From contig NZ_CAMHFP010000003.1 in NCBI RefSeq assembly GCF_946184425.1, positions 24,406-88,405 on the forward strand: a DNA stretch of 64,000 nt, given 5' to 3'. Made by a program: the position numbers and the translations under genes. Shown here one piece after another: positions 11,656-54,697 of this stretch. Positions within the stretch are counted from its first letter, which is position 1; each line of letters opens with the position of its first letter. The notes beneath the pieces are model-generated. The model made no database searches and was not told where the DNA came from. It was given only the letters and a program-made list of their open reading frames with translations. The stretch comes from an uncultured Methanobrevibacter sp. (GTDB lineage: Archaea > Methanobacteriota > Methanobacteria > Methanobacteriales > Methanobacteriaceae).

Positions 11656-12058
11656 GAAATCACCAACTATTATGAATATATGATTTGGAGATATTTAAAT
11701 TTCAACAGAGCATCTGAAAAGTAATGGTGCGATAAGTTAGGGTCTATTTCCCATTTAAATCAGTGAAATTTTATTTCAATCCCGTTATGATGGGATTTTT
11801 CCCATTTAAAATCATAATCAAGTGATTGATTATGAAGTTGCATGATATTATGTACAAATAAATATAAAGCATTCATTATGTTTATGTGCTATGGAAAGAA
11901 TGAAAAAGGTTAACGTTAGTGAACGATTATAATCTTTGTAATGCAAGCCAATATGTAGAATGTAATGTTAAATTTAATTTAGCTACTATTGAAAGTAAAT
12001 TCAAAGGAATAATCAATTAATATATGGTTATTTAGTAATAACCTTGCAGTAATGGCAC
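11656..12058. other. Intergenic stretch with hairpins and a CRISPR-repeat-like segment
   Basis: No convincing gene. It contains the gajA promoter region, a segment at 11773-11800 whose reverse complement ends in GGGATTGAAAT like many archaeal type I CRISPR repeats (single copy, with an internal AATCCC/GGGATT dyad), two copies of TTTCCCATTTAAA about 60 bases apart, and an 8-bp hairpin at 11813-11834 (CATAATCA / TGATTATG). The right end abuts the insertion sequence and includes the last nine codons of the gene it splits (12032-12058). The 63-residue track ORF at 11979-12170 crosses the element boundary and is not credible. Confidence 0.5.
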
Positions 12059-14830: not shown

Positions 14831-14890
14831 AGTTTTAGTGGTCCGAATCGATAAGTATCGGAACTTTTTTATTAGTTTTATACGAATTGT
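14831..14890 (+). repeat. Dispersed direct repeat, copy 1
   Basis: AGTTTTAGTG...GATAAGTATCGGAACTTTTTTAT...AGTTTTATACGAA; matches 15510-15570 with a few differences over about 58 bases. A shorter related stretch (GAGTATCGCAACTTTTTTA) lies near 15698-15716. Confidence 0.6.
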
Positions 14891-14895
14891 TCGTA
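14881..14895. promoter_or_regulatory. Palindrome TACGAA-TTG-TTCGTA
   Basis: A perfect 6-bp dyad around three central bases. The half-sites are the same as those upstream of msvR and nrdD. No gene lies close enough to say what it controls, so it may be a relic within the repeat. Confidence 0.35.
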
Positions 14896-15430
14896 AATAT
14901 TTGATTAATTGTTGCTTTTTTAATTAAAATTTTTCCTAAGTTAATGATTTTTTGATATATTTGAGGTGATGGTAGAGTGGATTGGTGGTCCACACTAATT
15001 AATTCAATCAATTTGTCAAATAATGTCACAAATTAAAATTCCACTTCATCGAAGTTCGTTTTTTAGAATCCTCACCTTGAAAACTGTTAACCTAGCTTTG
15101 ATTCCTATCAATCGTCAATCAGAAAAATGCTTGTTATATTCTTAACCAATATAGGTAGGAATATAAGTGACTGTTAAAAAAATAATGCAGTCAAGAAGCA
15201 TTTCTACCATCAACTCACCTTCCTTAGGAGGATAAAATATTTTGGATATTCGCTTTATCATTCTATGACTCCTAATTTTATATAGAATTTTTATCTGTTC
15301 CAGAGTACTATCATTTATTACTTTTATTATATAAAGTATTACTTTTTATTTTTTTACAAAATTTTATATATTAAAAAAAGGCAAGTAGTATTATTGGATA
15401 TTCGTTGGAATTCATTTTATGGTTCCATTT

Positions 15431-15509: not shown

Positions 15510-15570
15510 AGTTTTAGTGCTTGAAATTGATAAGTATCAGAACTTTTTTATAAGTTTTATACGAACAGTT
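15510..15570 (+). repeat. Dispersed direct repeat, copy 2
   Basis: Second copy of the repeat at 14831-14890, about 680 bases away in the same orientation. Both copies end in a TACGAA half-site like those in the candidate MsvR sites of this window. Confidence 0.6.
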
Positions 15571-25309: not shown

Positions 25310-25403
25310 ATGATTTCTAATTATTAAGTTCTGAAAAATTAGTTTTAGTTATAATTTTTCGGTGAAGATAGTTAATTATACGAACTATTTTATATGTCCT
25401 AAA

Positions 25404-25416
25404 ACGAACAGTTCGT
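25404..25416. promoter_or_regulatory. Palindrome ACGAACAGTTCGT upstream of msvR
   Basis: A perfect 13-base palindrome, preceded 20 bases earlier by another CGAA (TACGAAC at 25379-25385). It lies about 135 bases before the msvR start. The half-sites are those of the two dyads upstream of nrdD. MsvR proteins are reported to bind their own promoter region, so autoregulation is the likely role, although the spacing here differs from the nrdD sites. Confidence 0.5.
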
Positions 25417-25551: not shown

Positions 25552-26322
25552 ATGAAAGAACAAAAACCGATCCAAATTTTTTCAAATTTTGATGAGAAAA
25601 TTGGTGTAAATGTAATCAAAAGTCCTGTAAAACTTACTATTTTGGAAATGCTTAGAGATAGTGACATGGAATTTGATGAAATCGTTAATAACACTGGTAA
25701 ATCTAAATCTACCGTTTCAGTTCATTTGAAAAGTTTAAGGGAAAATGGAATCATATCATATAGGGTTCATCCAGTAGATAACAGAAAGAAAATATTTTAT
25801 TTAAATTCCAAATATATAGGATCTGTAAATATTGCTGAGCCAAAAGAGATTAAGGAAACCCAAGCGGACTATCTAATTGAAAATCTTGTTGATGATGATG
25901 CTGAATTTTCAACATTGCTTTTCCATACCTTAAAATCAATGCTTATTCAGGAAGGAATAAATATTGACCCTATTTTACAATCAACAGGAAATTGTATCGG
26001 TAATTCAATTTTTGGAAAGTTATATGATGATGATTTAGATATTTTCATGAGAAATATTGCTACATTTTGGGAAAATAAGGGTTTAGGTAGACTTTCATTT
26101 GAAGTAGGTCAAATTATTCGAATAACTACTTTTGATTGTTTTGAATGTGAACTGTTACCTAGAACAGGAAAACCAGCATGTTTTTTAGACACTGGAATTT
26201 TTGAAGCATTATTTACACAATACTTCAAACTGCCAGTCAGTGTAATTGAAACCCAATGTTACACTATGGGTGATGAAAAATGTGTTTTTGAGGTAGAACC
26301 TCTGCCAATTAAAAATTATTAA
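25552..26322 (+). CDS. msvR: MsvR-type redox regulator (winged helix plus V4R domain)
   Basis: A 256-residue regulator. Residues 15-100 are an ArsR-like winged helix (SPVKLTILEMLRDSDMEFDE, then KSKSTVSVHLKSLRENGII). The C-terminal 130 residues are a V4R domain with five cysteines in DCFECELLPRTGKPAC and ETQCYTMGDEKC, the pattern of the methanogen-specific V4R regulator MsvR, which changes DNA binding with cysteine oxidation. GGGAGATT precedes the ATG at 25552; the track TTG is rejected. It is not next to the fpaA oxidative-stress operon known from Methanothermobacter. Its stop overlaps the convergent cbiL by four bases. TACGAA/TTCGTA palindromes upstream suggest autoregulation. Confidence 0.85.
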   Translation: MKEQKPIQIFSNFDEKIGVNVIKSPVKLTILEMLRDSDMEFDEIVNNTGKSKSTVSVHLKSLRENGIISYRVHPVDNRKKIFYLNSKYIGSVNIAEPKEIKETQADYLIENLVDDDAEFSTLLFHTLKSMLIQEGINIDPILQSTGNCIGNSIFGKLYDDDLDIFMRNIATFWENKGLGRLSFEVGQIIRITTFDCFECELLPRTGKPACFLDTGIFEALFTQYFKLPVSVIETQCYTMGDEKCVFEVEPLPIKNY

Positions 26323-52127: not shown

Positions 52128-52149
52128 GATAACTAGGTATCTAGTTATC
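52128..52149 (-). terminator. Hairpin around the nrdD stop
   Basis: GATAACTAG-GTAT-CTAGTTATC, perfect 9-bp stem with TAG (52141-52143) at the edge of one arm, followed on the minus strand by TTATTCCACCTTATTTTTTT. Confidence 0.75.
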
Positions 52150-54468
52150 TTCAAATCTTCTTCTGTCAATTAGTTCTTGACGTTTACCAGGGTTCCATCC
52201 GCCAGAAGCGGATTTTGCACGTCCTACTTGTTGCACGTATCCGGTAATTCTGTCATACCATTCTACATCTTCGCTTTCACCGCAAGTAGGGCAGGTTGTG
52301 TTTAATCCTTTCATTAAAGTTTTACATTTAAGACAGAAACTTAATGCGGAACTGTAAGCCCAGAATCCGATATCGGATTTTTTAGCAATTTTATTTGTTA
52401 AACTCATTAAGGAATCTGGATCAGAGTAGGATTCTCCCATGAATGCATGGAAGATGTGTCCTCCAGGAGTTAAGCTGTGGTATTGTTCTTCAATTTTGAT
52501 TTTTTCAATTAATGAAGCACCGGTGTCCACTGGTACGTGTGAAGAGTTGGTGTAGTAGTTAGCATTTCCTTCACCTTGTACGATAGCCTGGTCTCCGAAT
52601 TGTTTTTTGTCAAGTGTTGCAAACCTGTATGCAGTAGATTCTGCAGGGGTTTGTAAAACAGACCATCTGAGTCCAGTTTCTTCTTGTAATTTTTTAGCTC
52701 TTGCATTAACGTATTCGAGACATTTTACACCAAATTTGTTTGCATCTGGGTTTTCGATACCTTCGCCGAATAAGGATAATAACATTTCGTTAAGTCCAAC
52801 GAAACCAAAGGATAATGTTGAATTTTGGATTCTGTAATATGAATCTTCAGCAACTTGTTGTTTTAAGAATGGTAAGATGTGGAAATCGTTTAAACATTTT
52901 AATCCTTGTTCTCTTCTGAGCATTAAGGTTTCTACTGCTAAATCCATATATTCATCTAAGTATTCAAATACTTGGGTTTCGTCTTTGGATTGGTATCCGA
53001 TTCTAGGGAAGTTTAAGGTTACATATGCTAAGTTACCGGTTCTTAAACAATCTTGATCCCAGTCACCGGTCCAAGTATCTTGTAGACAGGTTCTGCATCC
53101 CATGTAGTTTGCCATTTTTCCTCTGTATTCTGGGAACATATTTACAAAGTAGGATGAACCGTATTTTGCAGATAACTCGTGAACTAATCTGATGTCATCT
53201 TCATATTCGCTGGTCATTGTTTCAGGTCTTAAGGTGTAAATAGTATTTGGGAATAAATGAGGTTTACCTTCATTATCACCAGCAAGTAAAGTTTCAGTAA
53301 ATGCTCTTTGGATTAATCTGGTTTCTTCTTCAAAGTCAGCATAAGTTCCAACTACTTTACCTTTAGGTCCGTATGCAGTTTCGTCTTTTAAGAAATCCGG
53401 AACACCAAATTCCAATGCCATACTTGTGAATGGCACTTGTGATCCTCTTGCGGCATATGCCATGTTTAAGTTGTAAACAAGCATTTGTACAGATTGTTTG
53501 ATTTCATCATATGTTCTTCCTCTTGCAAATGGTGCAACAAATACGTTCCAAAGGGACATTCCTTGTCCTCCAGACATGTTTTGTTGTGCTGCGAGCATGA
53601 TTTCACCAGTATGGTTCATTAAAGTTTCCATATGGTTTGGTGCTCCTGCAATGGAGGTGTGGTCACCAGTACCGTCTACTTTAAGTCCGTATCTGATGAA
53701 TGTTCTGATATCGTGTTGCATACAGTTTAATGGCCTTCCTGCGAAAAATTCTAAATCGTGAATGTGAATGTCTCCAGCCATATGTGCATCTGCTAAATGT
53801 GATGGGAGCATTTTTAATAATGCATATTGTTTTAATGCTTCGTCTGCTACATGTTTGTGGATACTTTCTGGGTTATGGATCATATTTGCGTTATCTCTGT
53901 TACCGTTTTCAATTAATGAAGTAATGTTGTATACTGGAATACCTAAACGAGTGTAACGGCTTCTTAAATCTTCTAATCCGTATTCAATTAATTTTGTGTT
54001 AACCATTTCCCTAATCATTGGAGCGGTTAAATATTCAACATTTAATTTTTTAAGTTCTTTCCAGGTTTCAGTAGCAATTTCAAAAGCAGTTTCTTGGCTA
54101 GCACCGGTTTCTTCAATCAAAGTATTTGCAATTTTAGATAAATCGAATGCTTCGATTGTATCTCTGGAAGTACGTACTTTTAATTGGGTACTTGCTAAAT
54201 ATTTGTTTGCGATTTCACTGTCGATGTTTTCTAAACATTCGTAAACAATTTTTTTAATTTCTTTAGTTGTGATTCCGTCGTATAATTGTGATACAACAGT
54301 TGCAATAATCTTATCAGATTCAAAAAATGGTGTTTCAACCATTACTAAAGATTTAACTAATTTTTCATAACTAAATCTTTCTTTAATTCCGTTATTTTTT
54401 TCTACGTTTATTTTAACGGATTCATTTAAATTATTTCCGATTTCTGAACTTCTTTCCATATTATCCAC
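52141..54468 (-). CDS. nrdD: Anaerobic (class III) ribonucleoside triphosphate reductase
   Basis: A 775-residue glycyl-radical enzyme making deoxyribonucleotides without oxygen. An ATP-cone regulates it at the N-terminus ([20 protein letters not shown]). Active-site cysteines appear in MGCRTCLQDTWTGDWDQDCL. The zinc site is CLKCKTL...CPTCGE near residue 710, and the radical loop lies at the C-terminus (RAKSASGGWNPGKRQEL). No activase gene nrdG is next to it. AAGGTGG precedes the ATG. Two TTCG-N8-CGAA dyads overlapping TATA-like sequences lie 50-125 bases upstream, suggesting redox control, perhaps by MsvR. Confidence 0.97.
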   Translation of the reverse strand: MDNMERSSEIGNNLNESVKINVEKNNGIKERFSYEKLVKSLVMVETPFFESDKIIATVVSQLYDGITTKEIKKIVYECLENIDSEIANKYLASTQLKVRTSRDTIEAFDLSKIANTLIEETGASQETAFEIATETWKELKKLNVEYLTAPMIREMVNTKLIEYGLEDLRSRYTRLGIPVYNITSLIENGNRDNANMIHNPESIHKHVADEALKQYALLKMLPSHLADAHMAGDIHIHDLEFFAGRPLNCMQHDIRTFIRYGLKVDGTGDHTSIAGAPNHMETLMNHTGEIMLAAQQNMSGGQGMSLWNVFVAPFARGRTYDEIKQSVQMLVYNLNMAYAARGSQVPFTSMALEFGVPDFLKDETAYGPKGKVVGTYADFEEETRLIQRAFTETLLAGDNEGKPHLFPNTIYTLRPETMTSEYEDDIRLVHELSAKYGSSYFVNMFPEYRGKMANYMGCRTCLQDTWTGDWDQDCLRTGNLAYVTLNFPRIGYQSKDETQVFEYLDEYMDLAVETLMLRREQGLKCLNDFHILPFLKQQVAEDSYYRIQNSTLSFGFVGLNEMLLSLFGEGIENPDANKFGVKCLEYVNARAKKLQEETGLRWSVLQTPAESTAYRFATLDKKQFGDQAIVQGEGNANYYTNSSHVPVDTGASLIEKIKIEEQYHSLTPGGHIFHAFMGESYSDPDSLMSLTNKIAKKSDIGFWAYSSALSFCLKCKTLMKGLNTTCPTCGESEDVEWYDRITGYVQQVGRAKSASGGWNPGKRQELIDRRRFEDN

Positions 54469-54517
54469 CTTATTTTTTTTAACTATAATTATATTGAATT
54501 TAATTGTATAAATATTG

Positions 54518-54533
54518 TTCGTATTTGCACGAA
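54518..54533 (-). promoter_or_regulatory. TTCG-N8-CGAA dyad A upstream of nrdD
   Basis: TTCGTATTTGCACGAA. It fits the TTCGTA-N4-TACGAA form I recall for MsvR boxes with one mismatch. TATA-like TATAAATA lies on its left. About 50 bases before the nrdD start. Confidence 0.6.
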
Positions 54534-54575
54534 CATAATATAGTCAATACTTTGAATTTTTTAGTATATAAATCG

Positions 54576-54591
54576 TTCGTCTTGCATCGAA
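54576..54591 (-). promoter_or_regulatory. TTCG-N8-CGAA dyad B upstream of nrdD, flanked by mirrored TATA boxes
   Basis: TTCGTCTTGCATCGAA, same spacing as dyad A and 58 bases away. It is framed by a perfect outer inverted repeat, AGTATATAAAT (54563-54573) and ATTTATATACT (54596-54606), so a TATA box points out on each side. Confidence 0.6.
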
Positions 54592-54669
54592 CAATATTTA
54601 TATACTCTGAAATTTATTATGTATTTGCTATTAAAAATTAAATGCCCGAGAGCATTTGAAAAGTAATTG

Positions 54670-54697
54670 GTTCTTTAGAAAAATATATCTAAAGAAC
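54670..54697 (-). terminator. Hairpin around the polC stop
   Basis: GTTCTTTAGA-AAAATATA-TCTAAAGAAC, a perfect 10-bp stem with the TAA stop (54675-54677) in one arm. A second, 6-bp hairpin (AAATGC-CCGAGA-GCATTT, 54640-54657) follows on the minus strand. Confidence 0.7.

Follow-up and report, generated by a model that had tools for sequence, protein, structure and literature searches.

The window, by which we mean the whole 64,000-nucleotide stretch of Methanobrevibacter DNA analyzed here, carries nrdD downstream of polC and, 28 kb from nrdD, the msvR gene that the original prediction had placed in the same stretch (table 1). Read from its likely start, the ATG at 54459, nrdD matches TIGR02487 above the cut-off (549 bits) and PF13597 from position 1 to 562 of 562. 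By this full-length NRDD domain and an ATP-cone it is identified as the class III ribonucleotide reductase NrdD, with a predicted glycyl radical, and its product is 94–98% identical to those of many gut and rumen Methanobrevibacter metagenome-assembled genomes. No class I or class II ribonucleotide reductase was found in any of the 19 genus genomes searched, nrdD being the only reductase found and probably indispensable, and no match to NrdR exceeded the cut-off in the genus. With neither NrdR nor another reductase found, control of nrdD must fall to some other factor, and NrdR was ruled out as the binder of the dyads described below. A search of the nrdD region for RNA families returned none.

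Table 1. Coordinates of nrdD, msvR, and their promoter features in the window.
Feature	Position	Strand	Remarks
nrdD, class III (anaerobic, glycyl-radical) ribonucleoside-triphosphate reductase	52141..54459	-	TIGR02487, PF13597 + ATP-cone
TATA-like TATTTATACA	54505..54514	-	directly downstream of proximal dyad; second, duplicated promoter module
Proximal dyad TTCGTATTTGCACGAA	54518..54533	.	GTTCGT-N6-ACGAAC with flanking bases, 54517-54534
TATA box TTTATATA	54565..54572	-	3 bp downstream of distal dyad; kept in 19/22 promoters
Distal dyad TTCGTCTTGCATCGAA	54576..54591	.	nrdD-sense TTCGATGCAAGACGAAC; GTTCG-N8-CGAAC with flanks, 54575-54592
Mirrored TATA ATTTATATACT	54596..54606	+	other side of distal dyad; TATATAA kept in 4/22
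Half-site TACGAAC	25379..25385	+	beside TATA-like TATTTTATAT, upstream of msvR
Everted half-site arrangement ACGAACAGTTCGT	25404..25416	.	msvR promoter; single exact copy in genome
msvR, HTH_5 + V4R redox regulator	25552..26322	+	NF053755 303.7 bits, cut-off 220; Cys210/236/244

The nrdD intergenic region (200 bp) houses both dyads of TTCG-N8-CGAA geometry, where they had been predicted. They are the only matches to this pattern in the window, with 0.34 expected, and the genome scan that had been proposed returned seven matches in 2.23 Mb, two of them at nrdD. Both dyads fall within a 49-nt direct repeat (71% identical, 58-bp spacing) that, on its sequence, is a duplicated operator–TATA module: in nrdD sense the distal copy runs TTCGATGCAAGACGAAC-GA-TTTATATA and the proximal copy TTCGTGCAAATACGAAC-AATA-TTTATACA. 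The nrdD-strand TATA box begins 3–5 bp past the end of each dyad, which is where a repressor blocking TBP/TFB would sit. The four 17-bp dyad flanks contain 2, 4, 3, and 3 G+C (12–24% GC), three of them lying below 20% and one at 24%.

The distal dyad had also been described as enclosed by mirrored TATA boxes, and AGTATATAAAT (54563–54573) and ATTTATATACT do flank it symmetrically in this genome. Such an arrangement could represent two divergent promoters, the second of which would produce a plus-strand RNA antisense to the polC 3' end. We consider this very unlikely, and ruled the mirrored box out as a meaningful divergent promoter, because the outward TATA is kept far less often among relatives than the box on the nrdD side (4 vs. 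19 of 22); moreover, another word, CAGAGT, is conserved at its place in 16 of 22 and no plus-strand gene lies downstream. The mirrored TATA is probably incidental and deserves no functional weight. Directly upstream of the distal dyad, the segment at 54596–54614 reads AAATTTCAGAGT in nrdD sense, and it is CAGAGT, not the outward TATA, that is kept there.

nrdD was found in 113 of the 120 family genomes, and in 90 of these the DNA upstream of it was examined. All 41 Methanobrevibacter nrdD promoters read contain a dyad, compared with 0.24% of shuffled 250-bp promoters, and 22 of the 41 contain two, usually 54–58 bp apart; since the genus genomes are related, these counts are not independent events. 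Near-constant across the genus are the arms TTCG/CGAA, the outer G and C, and the TATA following the dyad together with its spacing, while the varying core often gives the exact published MsvR consensus (e.g., TTCGTATCAATACGAA). In a family-wide search, the 48 genus genomes together had 26 sites of the exact form TTCGTAN4TACGAA, and 23 were within ~130 bp of the nrdD start. Selective retention of the nrdD dyads is nevertheless evident. Absence of the motif at nrdD in relatives possessing MsvR had been named as an observation that would speak against the proposed link; the box is kept throughout the genus; farther afield, several genera lack it at nrdD despite having MsvR (e.g., M. cuticularis, M. 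filiformis, M. curvatus, and g16). The connection between an MsvR-type box and nrdD can evidently be lost, as in these genera. A changed MsvR specificity behind the loss is unsupported, the recognition helix being unchanged in the g16 MsvRs compared. Two further genomes (G005 and G011) retain half-sites at nrdD with no full MsvR found, possibly owing to an assembly gap, and by genus the boxes at nrdD and at msvR show a loose correlation only.

To delineate the genes sharing this box, 74 nrdD boxes taken from other genomes were made into a symmetric weight matrix, which was used to scan 2.0 of the 2.27 Mb of a complete relative, G052. The best seven sites, scoring 24.8 to 13.5, all lie between genes and the next, at 9.2, is coding; since a shuffled genome scores up to 14.1, the lowest of the seven are supported by their conservation and not by score. 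The seven sites belong to six promoters, namely those of nrdD (two sites), deoC, a DUF2097 gene, a NifB-like radical SAM gene, an unknown gene facing Hsp20, and the intergenic region between aksF2 (homoisocitrate dehydrogenase) and a HEAT-repeat gene. All six have matching sites in the present genome too (at nrdD and in L004, L172, L170, L171, and L005), so that they make up a small conserved regulon, and the aksF box was also found in another genus (L289). At most of these promoters the box is close to the TATA box, on either side, as expected of a repressor. The G052 scan returned no regulator gene among the targets, which suggests that control of the regulator itself lies outside this set, as it would for MsvR, and speaks against a dedicated second regulator. 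A gene of unknown family, possibly portal-like by eye, has an nrdD-type box upstream at L004:1638-2939 and L187:75-1385; the L004 gene had no Pfam or PHROGs match.

Two readings that dispense with a regulator can be weighed against these observations. At least two matches arose in 2 of 100 shuffles of the window, which would allow chance palindromes in an AT-rich promoter, but conservation refutes this reading: a dyad in every genus promoter read, its constant position, and the location of 23 of the 26 exact sites at a single gene leave it a negligible probability. The words GTTCGT/ACGAAC also stand directly upstream of TATA boxes, as would BRE-like core-promoter elements read by TFB. These words are palindromic, however, some sites are downstream of the TATA (deoC, radical SAM), and the ~7 sites in 2.0 Mb are nearly confined to a few promoters instead of occurring at promoters generally, making a core-promoter role scarcely credible.

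The window MsvR has an ArsR-type HTH plus V4R, an equivalog-level score, and three conserved V4R cysteines with the exact spacing of C206/C232/C240 in M. acetivorans MsvR; its recognition helix, KSKSTVS-HL, is the same as in Methanothermobacter MsvR. The MsvR box on which the original prediction drew, TTCGTA-N4-TACGAA, agrees with the published TTCGTAN4TACGAA, generalized to TTCGN7-9CGAA with AT-rich 17-bp flanks of <20% GC (PMC3729527). MthMsvR in its reduced form represses fpaA and msvR by excluding general factors, and MaMsvR does not bind a coding-region TTCGN8CGAA in rpoK, the motif alone being insufficient (PMC3729527). Compared with the MsvR boxes of Methanothermobacter PmsvR/fpaA and M. 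acetivorans PmsvR, the nrdD dyads are alike in half-site, inverted orientation, N8 spacing, AT-rich flanks, and placement over the BRE beside the TATA, and an msvR gene is present. They differ in that the candidate targets are nrdD and a metabolic set instead of msvR/fpaA, and in that the operator–TATA modules are doubled.

A further difference from Methanothermobacter is that the genus msvR and the G052 flavodiiron operon use an everted arrangement of the half-site, ACGAANNNTTCGT. This is carried by 23 of 40 genus msvR promoters, with no use of the inverted box. G052 has seven exact everted sites in 2 Mb. The six intergenic ones all fall within 112.8–135.0 kb, and among the promoters concerned are those of msvR, of a C_GCAxxG redox protein, and of a flavodiiron-rubrerythrin operon, whose flavodiiron-rubrerythrin pair corresponds to the fpaA-rlp-rub operon, the known MsvR target. 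In this one relative scanned, the genes with inverted (nrdD-type) sites and those with everted (msvR/flavodiiron-type) sites form disjoint sets. Methanothermobacter-like genomes (family f2) have TTCGTATATCATCGAA at msvR/fpaA, accompanied by TACGAAC in the msvR promoter, and TATACGAACAGTTTC at nrdD, so that the arrangements at msvR and nrdD are swapped relative to Methanobrevibacter. The simplest explanation of such a swap, which involves a single pair of promoters, is one protein that reads the half-site either way, though two related regulators are also possible. In a sister family without MsvR (four genomes), the three readable nrdD promoters have no ACGAAC, which also favors MsvR. We tentatively propose, at slightly less than even confidence, that the half-site ATACGAAC in two arrangements defines two regulons, an inverted one (nrdD, deoC, aksF2/HEAT, NifB-like, DUF2097) and an everted one (flavodiiron-rubrerythrin, msvR), with msvR and nrdD having traded arrangements as the Methanobacteriales evolved; either MsvR would read both, its redox or oligomeric state differing between them, or a second regulator would form a dedicated archaeal ribonucleotide reductase regulon replacing NrdR. 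Elsewhere in the window, ACGAATTGTTCGT (14884–14896) and TACGAACAG (15560–15566) occur in two similar stretches (GATAAGTATC.GAACTTTTTTATNAGTTTTATACGAA) of a gene-poor region before a pstS-like gene, and the promoter-like module of these stretches also precedes redox genes in G052 (112.8–122.2 kb).

Taken together, the dyads are somewhat more probably than otherwise sites through which a transcription repressor, in all likelihood MsvR as a thiol-redox sensor, acts on the two duplicated operator–TATA modules that drive nrdD in tandem; oxidation would derepress the gene. We infer MsvR as the binder, repression, and the direction of the redox response, the last by analogy with the Methanothermobacter and Methanosarcina proteins. 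For the nrdD dyads, MsvR is the strongest candidate as binder given the geometry of the published box, the AT-rich flanks (as MaMsvR needs), and the half-site ACGAAC common to the msvR promoter; of the 14 copies of this half-site in the window, six are in the promoters of msvR (three) and nrdD (three). The proposed link of redox sensing to nrdD is thereby upheld as regards conserved operator-like sites of MsvR-box geometry and an MsvR with HTH and redox cysteines, but leaves MsvR a candidate for the protein that binds, the classic targets in G052, and msvR in this genome too, carrying the everted arrangement and the inverted box marking other genes.

The separate gene sets in G052 could mean two regulators. 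The dyads may then be operators of a different, so far unnamed regulator of a small regulon (nrdD, deoC, aksF2/HEAT, NifB-like radical SAM, DUF2097, unknown gene/Hsp20), an archaeal stand-in for NrdR sensing deoxynucleotides or another signal, its ACGAAC half-site being common with MsvR by descent (e.g., an ArsR/MsvR-like paralogue) or convergence. We regard this as a serious but rather doubtful alternative. It would account for an inverted-box regulon disjoint from the redox regulon and for the presence in it of nrdD and deoC, both deoxyribonucleotide genes, and this genome does have a second MsvR paralogue (L009, C7:65301-65990), which lacks the CX2C pair, keeps the three V4R cysteines, and had no box in its promoter. 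Such a paralogue is not needed, however, since the nrdD box persists in complete genomes where only one MsvR exceeds the cut-off (G044, G021, G031, and G061), and it is disfavored as the binder on that ground. The swapped arrangements in Methanothermobacter-like genomes would, in addition, require two regulators to have exchanged targets.

If MsvR is the repressor, a dimer of the reduced protein on either dyad would cover the BRE directly upstream of the TATA and block TBP/TFB, and occupation of both dyads would hold down both tandem nrdD promoters. Oxidation would alter the V4R cysteines, causing the repressor to release or rearrange and derepressing nrdD. The new product would replace enzyme whose glycyl radical oxygen had destroyed, in cells for which this is apparently the only reductase available.

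Among known systems, the NrdR boxes of bacterial ribonucleotide reductase promoters are similar in forming paired palindromes beside core promoter elements and in their small, reductase-centered regulon; they are unlike the nrdD dyads in sequence and in spacing (55–58 bp here), and the genus has no NrdR that we found. SurR, another regulator of archaea, belongs to a family and has a recognition sequence other than those of MsvR. SurR-type thiol-switch regulators likewise are archaeal redox switches acting at promoters (PMC7278568). In our literature search, the one paper naming both MsvR and ribonucleotide reductase drew no connection between them, and a search for studies of nrdD binding or expression in any Methanobrevibacter returned none. 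To the question of how archaea without NrdR control ribonucleotide reductase, the sites, their conservation, their fixed place before the TATA, and their small common regulon contribute a specific set of operators, located in a major genus of gut methanogens at the sole reductase gene found there. If true, this would be control of the supply of DNA building blocks in these archaea of a kind so far undescribed. Should MsvR be responsible, its role would extend from oxygen-defense genes to DNA-precursor supply, and nrdD induction would be predicted after oxygen damage.

Other elements were noted on either side of the nrdD promoter. In 26 of the 41 genus promoters, a hairpin of the type TGAGAG-N4-CTCTCA, with varying stems, is present near the expected nrdD transcript start (5' leaders L010-L050); the leader in this genome is shorter and without it. 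The word GAGCAT(C/T)TGAAAAGTAAT has exactly two copies in the window (54650–54667 and 11708–11725), and the one next to polC belongs to a block that relatives also keep beyond the polC stop. A perfect 10-bp inverted repeat, GTTCTTTAGA/TCTAAAGAAC (54670–54697), extends over the polC stop and is possibly a 3'-end signal.
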